A DNA stretch of 46,365 nt from an uncultured Candidatus Actinomarina sp. (lineage in GTDB: Bacteria > Actinomycetota > Acidimicrobiia > Actinomarinales > Actinomarinaceae), in contig CACGVI010000007.1 in the NCBI GenBank assembly GCA_902576605.1, forward strand, positions 1-46,365, written 5' to 3'. This document shows, one piece after another, positions 3,983 through 36,944 of the stretch (its first letter is position 1; the number at the start of each line of letters is the position of its first letter). The translations under genes and the position numbers were made by a program. Under the pieces are notes generated by a model, which was not told the origin of the DNA, did not search any database, and saw only the letters and a program-made list of their open reading frames with translations.

Positions 3983-4986
3983 AAGAAAAAAAGTTTTTTT
4001 TAATTTTTTTAATATTAACCTTTGGCATGTGTGGTAGTAGCTCCACTATAGAATTAAATGAACCTGTAGAAGAAGATATAGAAACTGATTTGAACAATTT
4101 AGATGCAACTGAAAAAGCGGAAGAAACCGTTCAAACTGACACAAATGATAAATCTGATTCAGTAAGTAAGGAAAGTCCAGTTATAACGATTGAAAACATA
4201 AAACCTATAGATCATTACGGTACAAGTTCGCATATAGAAATAGTAGATGAATCTACTTTAAGACTTTTTTACAATGATTTTGGCGGTGTTGTGGTTTTTC
4301 TTTGTAGTTATGATTTTGTTTGCGAAACACAGGGAACCATTCGATTTATTACAGACCTTACTTTAATTGAAACTCTAGATGGTGAAAGAAGGGGTTATTT
4401 TGTGGAAATGAACCCAAATACAATGGAAAGTGGTATTTATACTGCAATTTTTTCTGAAGATGGACTCTCATATACAGAGAAAACACCTTTAGGCATTACA
4501 GCTAAAGAAGATGAAGTAGCTTGGGGTGTTCCTGATTCAGTAGTTATGCCAAATGGTTTGGTAAGAATTTATTGGGTATATACAGAGGATAATTTCTCAC
4601 CTGAGAAAATTGCAAGTGCAACGTCAAAAACAACAAAAGGGATTGAGTTTACACTTGACCCGGGATACAGGATTGATGATGGCTATGTAGACTTCGAAGT
4701 TTTAAAAGCGGAAGAAGGAGACTGGAGAGCTGTAATGTCATACACACCACACTACCTTCCCGACATACCCCAAAGTATATTTTACGCAACCTCAAGAGAC
4801 GGCTTAGATTGGGAATTTAATAAAAAGAGAATAACTGAAAAAGATTTTAGTTATTTAGATCCAACAGGAGTACCACTTGACAACGGAACATATTTACTGG
4901 TTATGAGTGGGGCAACAAATCAAATGGCTGATCCAATGAAAAATCCTAATTATCAATTATTTACAGCACAATTAATTCTTCCATAG
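3979..4986 (+). CDS. Lipoprotein, beta-propeller (glycosidase-like fold) paralog 2
   Basis: Lipobox-like LTFGMCG; shares VMPNGLVR.YWVYTED...SATSKTTKG.EF...DPGYR with previous ORF; ATGA overlap. Confidence 0.7.
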   Translation: MKEKKFFLIFLILTFGMCGSSSTIELNEPVEEDIETDLNNLDATEKAEETVQTDTNDKSDSVSKESPVITIENIKPIDHYGTSSHIEIVDESTLRLFYNDFGGVVVFLCSYDFVCETQGTIRFITDLTLIETLDGERRGYFVEMNPNTMESGIYTAIFSEDGLSYTEKTPLGITAKEDEVAWGVPDSVVMPNGLVRIYWVYTEDNFSPEKIASATSKTTKGIEFTLDPGYRIDDGYVDFEVLKAEEGDWRAVMSYTPHYLPDIPQSIFYATSRDGLDWEFNKKRITEKDFSYLDPTGVPLDNGTYLLVMSGATNQMADPMKNPNYQLFTAQLILP

Positions 4987-15428: not shown

Positions 15429-16394
15429 TTAATTAGACATTCTCTCAGTTATAAAAGAAATAACTTTTTGAGAGTCAACGCCTATACAAATGTTTACTTT
15501 TCTTCTATTTTCCCAAGGTTTTAAACGCTCCCCAAGACCTTCTTCATTATCTGAAATTCCCATTCCCATCCAAGTTTTTCCCCTACTAATACCCTCAGTT
15601 TCTACTTTTATTGGATAACACAGGGTTTCAAAATATTCTGGATGAACTAAATAAGTTATAGCTGATGAATCATGAATGGGCATTCCATTTTCTTGAAAAA
15701 AATCTTTTAAGAAATTGAAATAGAAAGGATTGATTTTTCCTATGTGTTTAGATTTATCATTATTAAATGAACTTAGTGTGATAACCTGTTCCTCATTCAT
15801 AAAAACATTATTGGTTACATCAAGACCAACCATAGTTATTTCACACTGAGCAGAAAATACAACATCAGCAGCTTCAGGATCATTGAGTATATTTGCTTCT
15901 GCTGTTGGAGTTGCATTGCCTGGAGATTGAGCATTGCCACCCATTAAAACTATCTCTTTTATCTTTGAGTCTATACCTTCGTGAATAGTCAGTAGACTTG
16001 CTATATTAGTTAACGGCCCAACAGGAACAAGAGTTATTTCGTTCGGATTATTCTCAATAATTTCTTTCAAAAAAGTAACAGCATCAATATCTAAGGGTTT
16101 TGTTACAGGTGAAGACAAAGCAGCATTACCTTGGCCATTATCTCCGTGAACAAAGGAAGCTGCACCTCTAAAAATTCCATTTAAAGGAACTTTTGCTCCC
16201 TCTACTACTGGTACATCTGTTCTTTGTGCTATTTCTAAGAGCCGAAGAGCATTCTCAGTGCATGTTGTGGTAACAGCATTGCCAAAAACTGTTGTTAAGC
16301 CAAGCACCTCTAGTTCAGGAGAGTTAAGTGCGACAAAAATAGCTAGTGAGTCATCTACTCCTGGATCTGTATCAATTATTATTTTTTTGACCAA
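15429..16394 (-). CDS. Inosine-uridine-type nucleoside hydrolase
   Basis: IIIDTDPGVDDSLAI, VPVGPLTNIA, MGGNA. Confidence 0.92.
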   Translation of the reverse strand: MVKKIIIDTDPGVDDSLAIFVALNSPELEVLGLTTVFGNAVTTTCTENALRLLEIAQRTDVPVVEGAKVPLNGIFRGAASFVHGDNGQGNAALSSPVTKPLDIDAVTFLKEIIENNPNEITLVPVGPLTNIASLLTIHEGIDSKIKEIVLMGGNAQSPGNATPTAEANILNDPEAADVVFSAQCEITMVGLDVTNNVFMNEEQVITLSSFNNDKSKHIGKINPFYFNFLKDFFQENGMPIHDSSAITYLVHPEYFETLCYPIKVETEGISRGKTWMGMGISDNEEGLGERLKPWENRRKVNICIGVDSQKVISFITERMSN

Positions 16395-16447
16395 TTTTTT
16401 CCTTTTATTCGCCCATCTTAAATGGATGATTTAAACTTTGTTTATAT

Positions 16448-17440
16448 ATGTCACAAAAAAAATTCATTATAGATGCAGATACAGGATCTGACGATGCAGT
16501 AGCTATTTTAATGGCATTAAGAGACCCAACAGTCGAGGTTTTAGGAATAACACTTGTATCTGGCAATGTTCCACTCCAACAAGGAATTTTAAATACTTTG
16601 TACACTGCAGAATTATGTGAGGTACCAGTTAATGTTTATGCTGGAGCCGACAGACCCTTAACTCGGAATTATATAGAAGAATATACGCTTAAAGATTTCT
16701 CAGAACGTGTACGAACACTTTCACCAGATTCAGTCAGCGGACAGTGCGTTCACGGTGTTGATGGAATGGGAGATATCGGGATTAAGCCAGATAATGAACA
16801 ATATGAAGAACAGGGTGCGGTAGATTATTTAATTAAGTCTTTTTCGGAATCTCCAAACGAAATAACTTTAGTTACCCTCGGGCCACTTACAAATATAGCA
16901 AACGCAATTAATGAAGACCCAACTATTGTAAATAAAATTGAGCATTGTTACATAATGGGAGGCACTTCCGATGGAACAGGAAATGTTTCTGCGGCTGCGG
17001 AATATAACATATGGGTTGATCCTGAGGCAGCAAAAATAGTCTTTGATTCTCGACTAGACATCACTATGGTTGGTTGGGATAATTCATTCAAATATGCAAT
17101 GTTGAAAGAAAAAGAAATTAACGATCTTAAATCTTTAAATACAAAATATGCTGATTTCTGTGTAGACATTCAAAAAACCTTAACAGAACTTACCCATGAA
17201 ACTTATGGATTTTATGGTTTTGATTTACCTGATCCCATCACAATGGCTATTGCATTAGATAATTCAATTATTTTAGAGTCACAACAACTCCATGTACTTG
17301 TTGACACAAGAGATGGAATAACAAGAGGTCAAACTATTGTGGATTATTTTAATGCTGAGAAGGGCAAACAAAACGTGAGGGTTGTTACAAAATCAGATAA
17401 CGAGGGTTTTTTAAACTTGTTGACTTCTTTAGTAAAGTAA
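16448..17440 (+). CDS. Inosine-uridine-type nucleoside hydrolase
   Basis: FIIDADTGSDDAVAI, LVTLGPLTNIA, YIMGGTS. Confidence 0.92.
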   Translation: MSQKKFIIDADTGSDDAVAILMALRDPTVEVLGITLVSGNVPLQQGILNTLYTAELCEVPVNVYAGADRPLTRNYIEEYTLKDFSERVRTLSPDSVSGQCVHGVDGMGDIGIKPDNEQYEEQGAVDYLIKSFSESPNEITLVTLGPLTNIANAINEDPTIVNKIEHCYIMGGTSDGTGNVSAAAEYNIWVDPEAAKIVFDSRLDITMVGWDNSFKYAMLKEKEINDLKSLNTKYADFCVDIQKTLTELTHETYGFYGFDLPDPITMAIALDNSIILESQQLHVLVDTRDGITRGQTIVDYFNAEKGKQNVRVVTKSDNEGFLNLLTSLVK

Positions 17441-18111
17441 TGATTGTACAAATTTATACACTCCAATCTGTGGAGGAAGCTTTAGAAGTGGAATCTGTAG
17501 GTGTTCATAATATTGGACTAGCACCAGCATCAATAGGACTTCCAGGTGAAATATCATATGAAACAGCGAAGTCTATCTGTGATGAAGTTCAAAATTCAAA
17601 AACAGTAGCACTTTCAGTCTCCAACAATATAGAAGAAATCATAGAGATGGTCATGTTTGTAAAACCTGATATTCTTCACTTATGCGGTGAGCCTGGTGAG
17701 CTGAATGCTTCAAGAGTAAAAATACTGAGAGATCGCCTACAAAGTACTGATAAGGGAATTCCTATTATGCAAGCTATTTCAGTGGAAGATATGAGTGCAG
17801 TGGAATTTGCAAAAGAATATGAGGATGTCTCAGATTACTTTATTCTTGATACTTCTACCTCTCTAGTTCAGGGGGTTGGCGCTAGTGGCAAAGTACATGA
17901 CTGGAATGTTTCAAAAGCAATCGTTGATTCCGTAAAAATACCAGTTATTTTGGCTGGAGGACTATCTCCAGAAAATGTAAGAGATGCAATAGAAAAAGTC
18001 AAGCCATGGGGTGTTGACTCGCTAACTCATACAAATAAAATTTTAGATAATGGAGATTTTGTTAAAGACATAACAAAAGTGAGAAAATTTTTCAAAAATG
18101 CAACGGGATAA
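17440..18111 (+). CDS. TrpF-like (phosphoribosylanthranilate isomerase fold) protein with altered active site
   Basis: (beta/alpha)8 pattern, DILHLCGEPGE, FILDTS...GVGASGKVHDWNVSK, PVILAGGLSPENV; N-terminal KxCG-type Cys absent (VQIYTLQ). Confidence 0.75.
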   Translation: MIVQIYTLQSVEEALEVESVGVHNIGLAPASIGLPGEISYETAKSICDEVQNSKTVALSVSNNIEEIIEMVMFVKPDILHLCGEPGELNASRVKILRDRLQSTDKGIPIMQAISVEDMSAVEFAKEYEDVSDYFILDTSTSLVQGVGASGKVHDWNVSKAIVDSVKIPVILAGGLSPENVRDAIEKVKPWGVDSLTHTNKILDNGDFVKDITKVRKFFKNATG

Positions 18112-19048
18112 TGTAACAAAAAAAGTCAATATTTTAGGCGATGCCAATGTTGATATGATTCTAAATTTATCAGACAAACAAAATCTCGGGGAGCCAAGTT
18201 TATTTTCAGGTGGATCGTCGGCCAATGTGGCATCTGGATTATCTAAACTCGGTATCGACGTTTCTTTTTTTGGTTCACTTGGTAAGGATATCTATGGAAA
18301 ACATGTAGTAGACGAGATGAAAGCAGATGGTATTGATATCAGTAATTTAGCGTTATTAGATAATTACAATACAGCAATGGTTATTGGTGTTGTTGAAGAA
18401 AGCAGTGAGAGACATTTTTTTCTTTGGCCACCTATTAATGGTGCTCACAATCAGTACACCTTAGACGATAAATCTAGAAAAGATCTATTAGATTGTGACT
18501 GGCTTCATGTATCGGGAATTAGTCTGCGTTTTAGTCCTGTAAAAGAGACAATGCTTGAAGCAATGAGGATATGTAATGAAAAGAGCAAAATAGTATCATT
18601 TGATCTTAACTTAAGGTCCGAACTTTGGGGATTAAGTGAAAGTTTTAAGGAAACTGTTCTAGAAGCGGTTTCTTACTCATCTATTGTATTTGGAAATTTG
18701 CATGAAGAATTTTTATTAATATATGATGGAAACAAGGACACTCTGGATAAACACATTTCTGAGAAACAAACGTTTATTTGTCGAGATGGTCACAACGGAG
18801 CATTAGGAATTACAAATAAGGACAAAGTTATATCAAATGCTATTCCAATTTCCCCTATAGATTCAGTTGGTGCCGGGGATGCTTTCAATACTGGTTTTAT
18901 ATATGCATCATGTTGTGGAAAAGATATTGAAGAATCTTTAGATATTGGAAATCAGGTAGCTGCTTTTAAGCTGTTAGGGTCAGGGGCTAGACACTTACCA
19001 ACAAAAGAATTACTTGATGACTTTAATAAGAAATACCAAATCAACTAA
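18098..19048 (+). CDS. PfkB/ribokinase-family sugar or nucleoside kinase
   Basis: GGSSANVASGLSKLG, SVGAGDAFNTGF. Confidence 0.9.
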   Translation: MQRDNVTKKVNILGDANVDMILNLSDKQNLGEPSLFSGGSSANVASGLSKLGIDVSFFGSLGKDIYGKHVVDEMKADGIDISNLALLDNYNTAMVIGVVEESSERHFFLWPPINGAHNQYTLDDKSRKDLLDCDWLHVSGISLRFSPVKETMLEAMRICNEKSKIVSFDLNLRSELWGLSESFKETVLEAVSYSSIVFGNLHEEFLLIYDGNKDTLDKHISEKQTFICRDGHNGALGITNKDKVISNAIPISPIDSVGAGDAFNTGFIYASCCGKDIEESLDIGNQVAAFKLLGSGARHLPTKELLDDFNKKYQIN

Positions 19049-28290: not shown

Positions 28291-28325
28291 CAATGTTTAA
28301 AAGGTAACCATTGTAAAAAAACCTT
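28291..28325 (+). promoter_or_regulatory. Candidate H-type pseudoknot riboswitch, preQ1-I-like, upstream of ecfA1
   Basis: P1 CAATG/CATTG (28291-95/28309-13), P2 AAGGT/ACCTT (28301-05/28321-25), loop AAC, A-rich L3 TAAAAAA; competing AAAACCT/AGGTTTT hairpin (28318-24/28339-45) covers the SD. Confidence 0.55.
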
Positions 28326-28345
28326 ATTAAAAAAAAAGAGGTTTT

Positions 28346-29176
28346 GTGTCTGTAATAAAAATAGAAAATCTTACTGTCCAGTATCTAGGTGAAGAAACAA
28401 ATGCATTGGATGGGGTCTCTCTTGAAATTCAAAAAGGAGAGTTTGTTGCTTTGTTAGGCGCACATGGTGCTGGTAAAACAACATTATGTCTTTCATTAAA
28501 TGGCATAGTGCCAAACATGATTAATGCTGATATGTATGGAGCAATAGAAGTATTGGGTGAAGTACCTCCAAAGATCCCTGTAAGGAAACTTGCAACTAAA
28601 GTCGGCAGTATTTTTGACAATCCAGAGTTTCAAATGAGTCAGTTAACAGTTTTTGAAGAAGTGGCTTTAGGACTCCAAAATTTAGGAGTGGAAAAAACTA
28701 CAATAGAAAAAAACATATCAGAATCACTAAAACTTGTTGGCCTAGAAGGGTTTGAGGAAAGGTCTCCATTTGAAATTTCTGGAGGACAACAACAAAGGCT
28801 AGCAATGGCTTCCGCTTTAGCAATGAAGCCAGAAATTTTAATCCTAGATGAACCAACATCTAATCTCGATCCAATTGGAAAAGAAGAAGTATTCTCCGTT
28901 ACAAGAAGCTTAAATCAAGAAGAAGGATTAACAGTAATAATTGCTGAACACGAAGTAGAAGTTATTGCAGAATTTGCTGACACTTTAGTCCTCCTAGACG
29001 AGGGAAGGGTTAACGAAGTAGGAACTCCGCAGGATATATTTCCAAGATTTGTCGATCACCAAGAAGATATTGGCGTAAGGGTTCCACAAGTGACAGATCT
29101 AGCTTCAAGAAAAACCAAAAATTTTAGTTCAATTCCTGTTACCTTAGATGAGTCAGTTGAGATGTATAAAAAATGA
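28346..29176 (+). CDS. ECF transporter ATPase A1 (GTG start)
   Basis: Walker A GAHGAGKTTL, ISGGQQQRLAMA, LILDEPTSNLDP. Confidence 0.9.
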   Translation: MSVIKIENLTVQYLGEETNALDGVSLEIQKGEFVALLGAHGAGKTTLCLSLNGIVPNMINADMYGAIEVLGEVPPKIPVRKLATKVGSIFDNPEFQMSQLTVFEEVALGLQNLGVEKTTIEKNISESLKLVGLEGFEERSPFEISGGQQQRLAMASALAMKPEILILDEPTSNLDPIGKEEVFSVTRSLNQEEGLTVIIAEHEVEVIAEFADTLVLLDEGRVNEVGTPQDIFPRFVDHQEDIGVRVPQVTDLASRKTKNFSSIPVTLDESVEMYKK

Positions 29177-29976
29177 CAAAAATTAAAGTATCTAACTTGC
29201 AACATAAATATCCAAATGGCGTAGTTGCCGTAAGCAATGTAAATGTTGAAATTGAACAAGGCGAACAAGTATCTGTTGTAGGACAAAATGGTTCTGGAAA
29301 AACCACATTAGTTAAACATTGGAACGGCTTATTAAAACCTACTAAGGGAAATGTTTTTGTTGGAGAACTAGATACTCTAGATCATTCTGTAAACACTCTT
29401 GCAAGAAAAGTAGGTTATGTATTTCAAAATCCAAACCATCAAATTTTTGCGGCTTCTGTAAGAGACGAGCTAGAGTTTGGTTTAATCAATATTGGATTAG
29501 ACGAGGAGGAAGTAAGCAACAGGACTAACCGTATTGCTGAAGAATTTGGACTAGTTGATTATTTAGAGACAAATCCATACAGGTTAGGATTTTCATTAAG
29601 AAAAACGGTTGGAATGGCATCAATAATTGCAATGGAGCCAGACGTTGTTGTTCTTGATGAACCAACAACGGGTCAAGATTATCTTGGAATAAAAGCAATT
29701 AGAACTGCAATAAAAAAATTAAAAGAACAAGGTAAAACAGTAATAGTGGTTTCTCATGACATGCCACTTGTTGCAGAAGATACAGACAGAGTTTTAGTAA
29801 TGTGTGACACAGAATTAATTTTTGATGGAACACCATCCAGGCTTTTTGCAAGTAAGGAGATACTATCCAAAACAAATCTTCTACCACCGCAAATTACTAG
29901 TTTTACACAAAAAGTTGGTTTAAATATTGAAGGCGAAAGTGTGCTATCTGTTGAAGAAGCGGAGAAAGCCCTCTAA
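29173..29976 (+). CDS. ECF transporter ATPase A2 with degenerate signature motif
   Basis: Walker A GQNGSGKTTL, VVLDEPTTGQD; signature position reads LGFSLRKTVGMA. Confidence 0.88.
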   Translation: MTKIKVSNLQHKYPNGVVAVSNVNVEIEQGEQVSVVGQNGSGKTTLVKHWNGLLKPTKGNVFVGELDTLDHSVNTLARKVGYVFQNPNHQIFAASVRDELEFGLINIGLDEEEVSNRTNRIAEEFGLVDYLETNPYRLGFSLRKTVGMASIIAMEPDVVVLDEPTTGQDYLGIKAIRTAIKKLKEQGKTVIVVSHDMPLVAEDTDRVLVMCDTELIFDGTPSRLFASKEILSKTNLLPPQITSFTQKVGLNIEGESVLSVEEAEKAL

Positions 29977-30061: not shown

Positions 30062-30099
30062 TAACAATGTTCATTGGGCTCATTGTTAAAAAACCCAAT
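30062..30099 (+). promoter_or_regulatory. Candidate second H-type pseudoknot upstream of the ECF S component
   Basis: P1 TAACAATG/CATTGTTA (30062-69/30081-88), P2 ATTGGG/CCCAAT (30073-78/30094-99), A-rich L3. Confidence 0.55.
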
Positions 30100-30103
30100 C
30101 AAC

Positions 30104-30124
30104 GCTAATAATTAATTTATTAGC
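30104..30124 (+). promoter_or_regulatory. Perfect 8-bp hairpin between pseudoknot and RBS
   Basis: GCTAATAA-TTAAT-TTATTAGC. Confidence 0.6.
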
Positions 30125-30153
30125 ATTGTAATTTCTTTCGAGGGGGAGATTAG

Positions 30154-30846
30154 ATGAACGAACAAGCCACTCAAGGCGAAAAACTAAGTAGCTCTACTGG
30201 CGGTGGAGTTCCTTTAACATATGTTATTGCATTAGTACCTGTTGCTTCTGTTTTGAATGTTATTGGTGGAACTGTCGCTGGAGCTTTGAAGCTACCTATC
30301 TTCTTGGACATGATTGGAACAGCAGTTGTTGCTATGACAATTGGTCCTTGGTGGGGAGCATTAGTTGGAGTGATCACAAACCTAACAATGGGCTTTTTAA
30401 CAGGTCCAGTTTCAATTCCATTCGCAGCATGCAACGTAGTTGGTGCTTTGGTATGGGGTTATGGAACAAGATGGGGCTTTGCTAATGATAAACTAAGATT
30501 CTTTGGTTTGTCTGTAGCATCAGCAGTCTTTGTATCACTAATGGCAGCACCAATTGTTATATTTGTTTTTGGTGGAGCCACAGGACATGCTTCAGATGTT
30601 TTAACAGCTGGATTATTAGCAGCTGGAAATGACATGTGGGCAGCAGTGTTTTCAAGTAACATTATTGTTTCTTCAGCTGATAAAATTCTTTCGTCATTCT
30701 TGGCGTTAGCAATTATTGGAGCATTACCTACAAACTTGCAGGTAACAGGTCCAATAATGAAAGCTGAAAATATGGGCACAGCAGTCTTAATAACAGCAGG
30801 TACAGTAGTAGGTGTAATTCTTACTGTTGTATCAATGAACTTGTAG
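30154..30846 (+). CDS. ECF transporter S (substrate-binding) component, specificity unknown
   Basis: Multi-TM; FLDMIGTAVVAMTIGPWWGALVGVITNL; strong RBS gaggggga; between ECF ATPases and EcfT. Confidence 0.78.
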   Translation: MNEQATQGEKLSSSTGGGVPLTYVIALVPVASVLNVIGGTVAGALKLPIFLDMIGTAVVAMTIGPWWGALVGVITNLTMGFLTGPVSIPFAACNVVGALVWGYGTRWGFANDKLRFFGLSVASAVFVSLMAAPIVIFVFGGATGHASDVLTAGLLAAGNDMWAAVFSSNIIVSSADKILSSFLALAIIGALPTNLQVTGPIMKAENMGTAVLITAGTVVGVILTVVSMNL

Positions 30847-31060: not shown

Positions 31061-31804
31061 ATGGAAGCTGTTCAGAAAATTGAACAAGTTAAACATTTAC
31101 CTATAAAATTTGGAGAAGTCGCCCGGTACGTAATAGTGCCGGGCGATCCCAATAGGGTCCCTGTTATAGCTGAGTCTCTTGAAAATGTAATCAACCAGGG
31201 ACAAAATAGAGAATTTAATGCATATAAAGGTACGTATAAGGGTATTGACGTATCTGTTGTATCAACTGGAATTGGGTGTCCATCTACAGCAATTGCTGTA
31301 GAAGAGTTATCTCACATTGGTGCTGAAGTATTTATTAGGATTGGGACGTCTGGATCTGTTGATAAATCAGCAAAAAAAGGAGATATTTTTATTGCTACAG
31401 CAGCTGTTAGAGATGATGGAACATCAAAGCAGTACATACCAATTGAATTTCCAGCAATAGCATCACACAATGTTGTTAGCAGTTTAATTAAAGCTTCAAA
31501 AGATTTAAATATTGATTCAAAAGTCGGAATATGTCAATCAAAAGACTCTTTTTTTGGAGAAACAGAACCAGACAGAATGCCTGTCGCTCCATACTTAGAT
31601 TTCAAATGGAAGTCGTGGCAAGAAGGGGGCGTTGGTGCTTCTGAAATGGAAGCTGCAACCTTATTCACTTTATCACAAATTAAAAGAATAGAAGCCGGAG
31701 CAATTTTAGCAATAGAAACATCAGATAAAGAAACGATAAAGAAGATGACAGAAATAGTTTTAGAGAGTATAACTTATATTGAAGGGGAAAGAAATGTCAG
31801 CTAA
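31061..31804 (+). CDS. Uridine phosphorylase-like (NP-I family) nucleoside phosphorylase 1
   Basis: YVIVPGDPNRVP, STGIGCPSTAIAVEEL, RIGTSGS, SEMEAATLF. Confidence 0.9.
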   Translation: MEAVQKIEQVKHLPIKFGEVARYVIVPGDPNRVPVIAESLENVINQGQNREFNAYKGTYKGIDVSVVSTGIGCPSTAIAVEELSHIGAEVFIRIGTSGSVDKSAKKGDIFIATAAVRDDGTSKQYIPIEFPAIASHNVVSSLIKASKDLNIDSKVGICQSKDSFFGETEPDRMPVAPYLDFKWKSWQEGGVGASEMEAATLFTLSQIKRIEAGAILAIETSDKETIKKMTEIVLESITYIEGERNVS

Positions 31805-32585
31805 TGAAGAAAAAACAAAATCAGGATTACTAGACGTAGACCTTCAATATCATGTCCAACTAAAAACTGGAGATGTATCAGACTTTGTAATATTACCCGG
31901 TGATCCAGGAAGGGTCGAATTTATAGCTGAGCACTTTGACTCGGCAACACTAGTAGCAGATAATAGAGAATACAAAACTATGACCGGTGTTTATAAGGGT
32001 CGCTCTGTTTCTGTAACATCAACCGGAATTGGATGTCCATCAACTGCGATCGCTGTAGAAGAATTAGCAAACGTAGGTGCAAAAACATTTGTGAGACTTG
32101 GAACTTCAGGAGCTATGCAAGAATACACGCGAGTAGGAGATAAAGTTATAGCAACAGGTGCTGTCAGATATGAAGGTACATCAGTGCAATACATGCCTAT
32201 AGAATTTCCGGCAGTGGCTTCGCATGATATGGTTTCCGCGTTAATTCAATCAGCAAATGAAGCCGAATTAAATCACCATATAGGGATTGTGCAGTCAAAA
32301 GATTCATTCTACGGACAACACAATCCGGAAGGAATGCCTATCGCCTCAGAATTGCTTCAAAAATGGGACGCATGGGTTAAAGGAGGAGTTCTCTGCTCAG
32401 AAATGGAAGCTGCAACATTATTTGTAGTCGGCTCTTATAGAAAATTAAGGACAGGAGCAGTTCTTTTAGTTGCTGGAGACCAAGCCAAACAAGAATCTTT
32501 AACGAAAGAAGAATACAAAGCAAATATGACAGAATCAATTAATATGATACTTGAATCAAGTTTACAAATTGAGGAAGGTTCATAA
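31794..32585 (+). CDS. Uridine phosphorylase-like (NP-I family) nucleoside phosphorylase 2 (start moved from 31779)
   Basis: FVILPGDPGRVE, STGIGCPSTAIAVEEL, RLGTSGA, SEMEAATLF; GGGGA RBS before ATG at 31794. Confidence 0.9.
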   Translation: MSANEEKTKSGLLDVDLQYHVQLKTGDVSDFVILPGDPGRVEFIAEHFDSATLVADNREYKTMTGVYKGRSVSVTSTGIGCPSTAIAVEELANVGAKTFVRLGTSGAMQEYTRVGDKVIATGAVRYEGTSVQYMPIEFPAVASHDMVSALIQSANEAELNHHIGIVQSKDSFYGQHNPEGMPIASELLQKWDAWVKGGVLCSEMEAATLFVVGSYRKLRTGAVLLVAGDQAKQESLTKEEYKANMTESINMILESSLQIEEGS

Positions 32586-33484
32586 TGGCAAGAGTACCAG
32601 TTGGAGCATACGTTCCAGGCGATTCTTTCTTTCACAGAGCTCATCCGTTTGTAAAGTTTTACTGGGTTGGCTCATTTGTAATATTTTGTTTTTTTAACAA
32701 AAATCCCTATGTGAATTATTCGCTAACTTTAATTGGTTTAGTATTCGTTGTTCTTACAAAAACTTTTCCAAGTTATGTAAGAGCTATGGTTATTTTCTTT
32801 CCTGCGGCATTTGCAATGATATTTCTTCAATCGATTGTCCCTCCAGCAGTATTCGATAATCCAGAACTATTAGCAGAACTTGGCCCCTTTTCTTTGTACA
32901 CTGAGTCAATTATTTATGGGATGCTTTTTAGTAGTCGCATTTTATGCATATGTACATGGTCTATATTAATGTTGATGACTTTACATCCTGGAGAATTGTC
33001 TTCAGCGTTACAAAAAGCTCGTGTACCCTATACAGTAAATTTCATGATAACAACAACTTTGCAACTAATCCCTATTCTTCAAAGAGAATTTGGAATTATT
33101 TTATCTGCACAAAAATCAAGAGCAATGGAAGCTCAAGGATTTAAAGCTTTGTTACCATCAATAATTCCAGTTTTTGCTGGAGCAATCGATAGGGTCTCTC
33201 AACTATCTATGAGTCTAGAAACGAGAGCTTTCGGCGCTAACAAAGAAAGAACACTATTGAGGTATAAAGAATTTACGACAAAAGAAACAGTATTGTCAAT
33301 TCTTTCTCTAGCACCAATTGTTCTTGTATTTTATGGAAGGGCAAACTTTAATGCATTTGTGCCATTGGAAGGGTTTTCATTATCTCCTTTTGCTGGTTCT
33401 TTCATTGTAATTTTTTGTGGTACAGCATTTTTATCTATAATTTTCGGTGCAACTTTTGCCATAAGGCTTCTTGGTAAGAAGTAG
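32585..33484 (+). CDS. ecfT: ECF transporter transmembrane protein EcfT
   Basis: Multi-TM; AQKSRAMEAQG and SLETRAFGA coupling motifs. Confidence 0.88.
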   Translation: MARVPVGAYVPGDSFFHRAHPFVKFYWVGSFVIFCFFNKNPYVNYSLTLIGLVFVVLTKTFPSYVRAMVIFFPAAFAMIFLQSIVPPAVFDNPELLAELGPFSLYTESIIYGMLFSSRILCICTWSILMLMTLHPGELSSALQKARVPYTVNFMITTTLQLIPILQREFGIILSAQKSRAMEAQGFKALLPSIIPVFAGAIDRVSQLSMSLETRAFGANKERTLLRYKEFTTKETVLSILSLAPIVLVFYGRANFNAFVPLEGFSLSPFAGSFIVIFCGTAFLSIIFGATFAIRLLGKK

Positions 33485-35963: not shown

Positions 35964-36944
35964 ATGGGTATTAATTGGGAGTCAAAAGTTTTGAGCTCGG
36001 TAGGGAATGTTATTGACAATGCACAACACATATCAGTGAGCGAAAAACATATAGAAACAGTTGCTGATTGGTTAGCATATGAAGAGTTTGGATTTCCTAA
36101 AAATAATCAAACAAATAAAAATCCGGAAAATTTTATTCGAACAACAATGCTTATTAATACTTTAAACTTTGCGTTTACTGATTTTGACACTTCAATTAAG
36201 TATGCAATAGAGCGAGATGGCCATGTACTTTCAGACAGTGAAGCCATGTTTGCCCAAGTACATGAAGCAATAGATTCTGGAATTAACCTGCTTAATGGTG
36301 AAGTACTAGAAAAATTAACAATTGAAGAACTAGAAAAAATTTTCGAAGGAAATATTGAAATGCCAATGTTAAAAGAAAGAGTAGAAATATTAAATGCTGT
36401 AGGAACAAAACTTGTAGATAGCTATGAAGGGGATTGGTTAAACTTTATAAAAAGTTGCCCACGAAAACTTTATTCAAATGGTGAGGGGTTAATTGAAAGA
36501 TTAGTTTTAGAGTTTCCAAGATTCAATGATTCTTCGATTTATTTAGATAAAGAGGTAAATTTTTACAAATTAGCACAACTAGCATTCTGGGGTATTCATG
36601 GTGAACTTGCTCACTCAAATTACTTTAGAATTGAAGACATGGAATCTATGACAGCATTTGCAGACTATATTGTACCGGTTGCCCTTATTGTCATGAAAAT
36701 AACTCAATATTCAGAAGAGTTAGAAGAAAAAATTATGAATGGAAAAATGATAGAAAGAAACTCAACTGAAGAAATTGAGATACGTGCAGCTACAATATAT
36801 GCAACAGCAAAACTTACTGAGAGTGTGAACAGAAGAAGAAAAGATATCCAAAGTTTAATAATACCCCAACTTGATTACAGACTTTGGAAGCATTACCATG
36901 CAACACATTTTCCTCATCATTTAACCTACACAACAATGTATTAA
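35964..36944 (+). CDS. Queuosine salvage glycosylase, Qng1/DUF2419 family
   Basis: MPMLKERVEILNAVG, LVLEFPRFNDSSIY, VNFYKLAQLAFWGIHG, MTAFADYIVPVAL, EIEIRAATIYA, LDYRLWKHYHATHFPHHLT. Confidence 0.82.
   Translation: MGINWESKVLSSVGNVIDNAQHISVSEKHIETVADWLAYEEFGFPKNNQTNKNPENFIRTTMLINTLNFAFTDFDTSIKYAIERDGHVLSDSEAMFAQVHEAIDSGINLLNGEVLEKLTIEELEKIFEGNIEMPMLKERVEILNAVGTKLVDSYEGDWLNFIKSCPRKLYSNGEGLIERLVLEFPRFNDSSIYLDKEVNFYKLAQLAFWGIHGELAHSNYFRIEDMESMTAFADYIVPVALIVMKITQYSEELEEKIMNGKMIERNSTEEIEIRAATIYATAKLTESVNRRRKDIQSLIIPQLDYRLWKHYHATHFPHHLTYTTMY

Follow-up and report, generated by a model that had tools for sequence, protein, structure and literature searches.

Gene content of the locus

The window, i.e., the whole 46,365-nt stretch of DNA analysed, is placed in Candidatus Actinomarina by its matches. 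It carries an ECF transporter operon in the order EcfA1, EcfA2, EcfS (CD3073-like), two uridine-phosphorylase-like proteins (UP1 and UP2), EcfT and an MFS protein (Table 1). The substrate-binding component EcfS also scores 26.4 bits against PF12822, under the cut-off, and is the most conserved operon protein when the window is compared with the homologous loci L037–L042 (85–100% identity; EcfA1, UP1 and EcfT reach 71–99%). The operon is present in 6 of 42 Actinomarina genomes, and a seventh copy (L040) sits in a MAG labelled Euryarchaeota, which is probably mis-binned.

Compared across Actinomarina, the surrounding locus reads CGS-NDT-P450-UP2-PfkB-Qng1-(nucleoside hydrolase)-msrA-panB, although not every species has all of these genes; UP2 is the gene around which the ECF set has been inserted into this salvage locus. 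A reading of the window from sequence alone (hereafter the sequence-only reading) had placed a queuosine salvage gene near the operon, and a Qng1-type gene is indeed found there. A second nucleoside-catabolism cluster, consisting of two inosine-uridine hydrolases, a PRAI-like protein and a PfkB kinase, lies at 15429–19048 of the window.

Table 1. Features of the ECF operon and its leaders (window coordinates unless a relative is named).
Feature	Position	Strand	Basis or remark
Pseudoknot copy A	28291..28325	+	EcfA1 leader
Copy A P1	28291-28295 CAATG / 28309-28313 CATTG	+	sequence
Copy A UU, L1 start	28296-28297	+	
Copy A P2	28301-28305 AAGGT / 28321-28325 ACCTT	+	sequence
Copy A AAC	28306-28308	+	C28308 = candidate specificity base
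Copy A A-rich L3 TAAAAAA	28314-28320	+	sequence
AAAACCT (anti-SD)	28318..28324	+	overlaps P2 3' strand; alternative partner of 28339-28345 (AGGTTTT)
AGAGG Shine-Dalgarno plus TTTT	28337..28345	+	5' of, and adjoining, GTG start at 28346
EcfA1, ECF transporter ATPase	28346..29176	+	TIGR04520/ABC_tran
EcfA2, ECF transporter ATPase	29173..29976	+	TIGR04521
Pseudoknot copy B	30065..30099	+	EcfS leader, same ECF operon
Copy B P1	30065-30069/30081-30085	+	same as copy A
Copy B P2	30073-30078 ATTGGG / 30094-30099 CCCAAT	+	differs from copy A, yet complementary
Copy B specificity position	U30080	+	
AT-rich hairpin	30100..30128	+	between copy B and SD; predicted fold
Local hairpin over EcfS Shine-Dalgarno	30129..30152	+	predicted fold; likewise predicted in L037, L038
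EcfS, substrate-binding component, CD3073 family	30154..30846	+	NF045596 114.7 bits (<180-bit cut-off)
UP1, uridine-phosphorylase-like	31061..31804	+	PF01048; TIGR01718 248.6 bits (<280.3 cut-off)
UP2, uridine-phosphorylase-like	31779..32585	+	TIGR01718 295.7 bits, over cut-off
EcfT (CbiQ-like)	32585..33484	+	PF02361
Qng1-type queuosine salvage gene	35964..36944	+	PF10343 4.8e-54, synteny; outside operon, same salvage locus
QPTR gene	L115 8001-8720		between msrA and panB, Qng1 salvage locus

Two pseudoknots in the operon leaders

The sequence-only reading had proposed an H-type pseudoknot in the EcfA1 leader, and we find it at exactly the positions claimed (copy A). That reading covered copy A alone: it missed a second copy ahead of EcfS (copy B), the tandem arrays of some relatives and a C-to-U change at the candidate specificity base.

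Because a loose pseudoknot search of this AT-rich window returns about 114 overlapping candidates per strand, a lone pseudoknot is weak evidence, and the reality of the element rests on recurrence and comparison rather than on such a search. A pattern of shared features, TGTT N8-13 CAYYGTWAAAAAA, matches twice in the window and never in 100 dinucleotide shuffles, a descriptive result since the pattern was written after both copies were seen; its second match, 30068–30093, lies in the EcfS leader. A covariance model (R1), trained on 14 copies that all come from one genus and are in several cases closely related, scores copy A at 55.2 bits (E 5e-10) and copy B at 45.5 bits (E 1.1e-7), both copies being themselves in the training set.

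Neither copy A nor copy B has a listed intrinsic terminator on the plus strand, and P1 is followed by an A-run, not a U-run. At the position matching the AT-rich hairpin downstream of copy B, L038 has a hairpin of different sequence. A sigma-70 promoter scan gave fewer sites than shuffled sequence, so promoter boxes seen by eye near the elements were dropped.

Distribution among relatives

The pseudoknot occurs in both the EcfA1 and EcfS leaders of L037, L038 and L042, and also in the EcfS leader of L040, whose contig begins too late to include an EcfA1 leader. Ahead of EcfS it is repeated in tandem, with four units in L042 and three in L040 at a spacing of 33–35 nt. In the middle units of the L042 array (4856–4924) the hairpin loop contains a GGCC palindrome, by which neighbouring units could kiss. 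The sister pair L039 and L041 (91–95% identical in the compared proteins) keeps the operon and lacks the element, which is most simply explained by one loss, and since the operon lives on without it, the element is dispensable.

Across the 42 Actinomarina genomes, R1 matches at E<1e-5 are confined to the ECF operon, and the rest of the genus gives no further match below E 1e-3. The best three matches off the operon (L057–L059, E 1e-3 to 2e-2) fall within coding sequence and were rejected. The model found nothing strong in a class sample of 396 genomes or a phylum sample of 399, and the element was not found with the distant EcfS homologs L083–L089.

Evidence for a selected structure

The sequence-only reading would have been contradicted by a lack of conservation or covariation of P1 and P2 in related genomes; what we observe is covariation in P1 and maintained complementarity in P2. 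Specifically, the closing G-C pair of P1 (pair 5) is invariant across all distinct copies, while pairs 2 and 3 exchange A-U for G-C between copies. The sequence of P2 varies but stays complementary in 9 of 13 scored copies, in the forms AAGGT/ACCTT, ATTGGG/CCCAAT, GAAAAGGT/ACCTTTTC and TTAGGT/ACCTGA. The summed native P2 energy is −39.7 kcal/mol, compared with −23.3 kcal/mol (sd 4.8) when tails are swapped between copies and −6.2 kcal/mol (sd 3.8) when loops are shuffled; the native value was reached in 0 of 2000 trials of either control, counts that are strong but not independent, as the copies are related. In the energy scan, a stable P2 is absent from three middle array units and from the last units of L042 and L040. 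The UU that opens L1 is invariant, and L3 consists of one or two T followed by an A-run in all copies, with a T preceding the 3' side of P2 in the three middle array units. Twelve of the 14 copies, copy A among them, have C before the 3' strand of P1; copy B and its L037 ortholog have U.

Comparison of the copies thus makes it close to certain that this is a conserved pseudoknot under selection. Chance complementarity in AT-rich leaders could draw on the abundance of loose pseudoknots in the window, but it is barely credible in view of the shuffle result, the two pairing controls and the genus-wide exclusivity of the element to the operon, and we regard it as refuted by recurrence.

We also considered a DNA operator, in which the inverted repeats CAATG/CATTG and ACGGTG/CACCGT would bind a transcription factor and the arrays would be clustered operators. 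The repeats themselves and the regular tandem spacing in L042 and L040 are what one would expect of it. However, the spacer between the P1 arms is not fixed but varies from 10 to 15 nt, for which an operator is poorly suited; the A-tract is strand-asymmetric, always on the 3' side; and complementarity of P2 across the arm is selected. This makes an operator very improbable.

Relation to preQ1-I riboswitches

The class I preQ1 riboswitch contacts its ligand through a G-C pocket floor, U6, a cytosine specificity base and an L3 adenine, and the specificity cytosine precedes the 3' strand of P1, as UC in type I and as AC in types II and III (PMC11625349). All four features are present in copy A; in copy B the specificity base is U. 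Like preQ1-I of types I–III, the element is an H-type pseudoknot of about 35 nt in the leader of transporter genes; P1 is closed by a G-C pair, L1 opens with the UU of types I and III, L3 is A-rich and, in most copies, C precedes the 3' strand of P1. Half of the Actinomarina copies have the AC of types II and III, and others have UC or CC. In B. subtilis preQ1-I mutants, a C-to-U change can redirect the pocket to adenine-like ligands. The same change in the C. antarcticus riboswitch weakens preQ1 binding (PMC8752633).

The differences are also clear. In the Rfam search that the sequence-only reading had suggested, RF00522 reached at most 11.9 bits (L042 4922–4961) and 10.7 bits (L040 184–224) against a gathering score of 39, the alignment in each relative being in register with the final unit of its array, and gave no match to the window copies, short scans included. 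These scores correspond to a single-family E of about 1e-3 after division by 4227 families, a value that does not yet take into account that several leaders were tried. No Rfam family was found at either gathering or relaxed thresholds, including the preQ1-II and preQ1-III models. At 11.9 of 39 bits the element falls outside RF00522, so of the earlier preQ1-I-like assignment the H-type fold and the conserved contact positions stand, while formal family membership does not. Canonical preQ1-I elements elsewhere in Actinomarina were rejected as well: candidates in 11 of 42 genomes have E 0.026–0.08, chance alone predicting about 4 at E 0.1, and all are far below the cut-off.

Further departures are the specificity C replaced by U in two Actinomarina copies, a setting without a canonical queuosine biosynthesis operon, and the tandem arrays of the relatives, preQ1-I being among the classes listed as not found in tandem (PMC9481103). 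Tandem riboswitches for the same ligand are known for glycine, c-di-GMP-I and glutamine (PMC9481103), which likewise have repeated units ahead of one gene; the Actinomarina arrays differ from these in fold and in the units themselves, of which there are up to four, each pseudoknot-like and about 33 nt long, though some have a weak P2. Our verdict is that the element is a preQ1-I-like variant, not an established member of preQ1-I.

A protein-binding or purely structural pseudoknot, tuning translation or mRNA stability with no small-molecule ligand, would fit the structural evidence equally well, and arrays of three or four hairpins with weak P2 in the middle units could be protein sites. The concentration of conservation at the preQ1-I pocket positions would then be a coincidence, however, and no known RNA-binding regulator is found among the operon genes, so that we consider this explanation rather unlikely.

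Predicted switching

An ON-type translational switch, as first suggested for copy A, is supported by folding for the EcfA1 leader and not for the EcfS leader. The proposed ability of the P2 3' strand to pair with the Shine-Dalgarno (SD) sequence instead is borne out by their complementarity, some of which is expected because the 5' strand of P2 is itself SD-like, and by the minimum free energy fold of the EcfA1 leader without the pseudoknot, where AAAACCT pairs with AGGTTTT and hides the SD (on average 3.92 pairs between the two). The energy models used cannot score the pseudoknot itself; when it is imposed, each of the four EcfA1 leaders shows a higher mean openness of the SD G residues (0.02 to 0.48, 0.32 to 0.47, 0.55 to 0.98 and 0.14 to 0.42), although in L042 competition comes mostly from the L2/P1 3' segment, not from the P2 3' strand. 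SD masking in the EcfA1 leader is a prediction of the folding model. In the EcfS leaders of the window, L037 and L038 the openness of the SD is unchanged by the pseudoknot, as a local hairpin covers it either way, and the ON logic is thus supported for the EcfA1 leader only.

The mechanism we propose is that a purine-like small molecule would dock between P1 and P2, pairing with the base before the 3' strand of P1, and would thereby stabilise the pseudoknot. This would, in the EcfA1 leader, trap the anti-SD strand on the 3' side of P2 and free the SD for translation; without ligand the same strand would cover the SD. This differs from translational-OFF preQ1-I, where the SD lies in P2. It is conceivable, though a speculative step, that the element represents a new class of ON switch working by anti-SD trapping, preQ1-I-derived or convergent, in which the C of one leader and the U of the other may let a single operon respond to both a guanine-like and an adenine-like compound with one fold, and which forms arrays of three to four units in some species.

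Gene context and the ligand

The two phosphorylase-like proteins deviate at positions that we take to be base-recognition residues: in UP1 the Q of the GQ motif, present in uridine phosphorylases such as 3qpb, is replaced by E, whereas UP2 is without the R of the ERMP motif that comes after GQ, both changes being conserved in L037–L042. These substitutions hint at nucleosides other than uridine as substrates.

Qng1 is present in all six operon-bearing genomes and in 25 of 42 overall. TGT and QueA occur in 39 of 42, and as nearly all genomes carry both, correlating the operon with either is uninformative. A gene for QPTR, the YhhQ-family transporter known to import Q precursors, is found in six operon-less genomes (G003, G004, G009, G016, G021 and G029), five of which also have Qng1 within the same locus, at a distance of a few kb. 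QPTR and the ECF operon never occur together, but two sets of 6 among 42 would fail to overlap by chance in about 37% of cases.

A preQ1-I element is found in C. difficile over queK-qrtT-queL, which combines an ECF S component with a nucleoside-cleaving enzyme (PMC11477304). The Actinomarina arrangement is similar in placing a preQ1-I-like element over an ECF S component and putative nucleoside-cleaving enzymes, but differs in having a whole ECF module, uridine-phosphorylase-like enzymes, a CD3073-type S component and an RNA that Rfam does not recognise. An equation of CD3073 with QrtT was not supported, since C. difficile qrtT belongs to the CD1682-84 operon (PMC11477304), and family models do not identify the Actinomarina EcfS as QueT or QrtT.

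The C. difficile parallel, the conserved contact positions, the frequency of TGT and QueA, the constant company of Qng1 and the placement of QPTR in the genomes without the operon would all suit a true but divergent preQ1-I riboswitch that senses preQ1 or queuine over a Q-precursor importer. We regard this as possible but doubtful, given the low RF00522 score, the U at the specificity base of copy B, the chance level of the QPTR disjointness, a locus full of ordinary nucleoside enzymes and the family of EcfS. Taken together, the gene context, with its uridine-phosphorylase-like enzymes, a ribokinase-like gene, Qng1 and the QPTR of other species, suggests a nucleoside or deazapurine as the putative ligand; this could be queuosine, or else a different purine nucleoside or the base of one.

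Interpretation and significance

At the level of sequence, the pseudoknot, its conservation, its presence in two leaders and its arrays are established. We consider it very probable that the small pseudoknot is a genuine gene-control element similar to the known preQ1 sensor, and likely that it is a ligand-binding, preQ1-I-like switch; ligand binding, the class of ligand and the ON direction in the cell are what we infer. On balance, and with modest confidence, we favour the full reading in which the element is a cis-acting, ligand-responsive H-type pseudoknot of preQ1-I-like form in two leaders of a single ECF operon for nucleoside or deazapurine uptake.

If true, this would place a preQ1-I-like pseudoknot in a streamlined marine lineage of Actinomycetota, on an operon of unassigned substrate. 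Tandem arrays, a C-to-U specificity change and anti-SD (ON) logic are not described for preQ1-I in the literature cited here. The identity of the ligand would point directly to the substrate of the CD3073-type ECF transporter and of the phosphorylases encoded with it.
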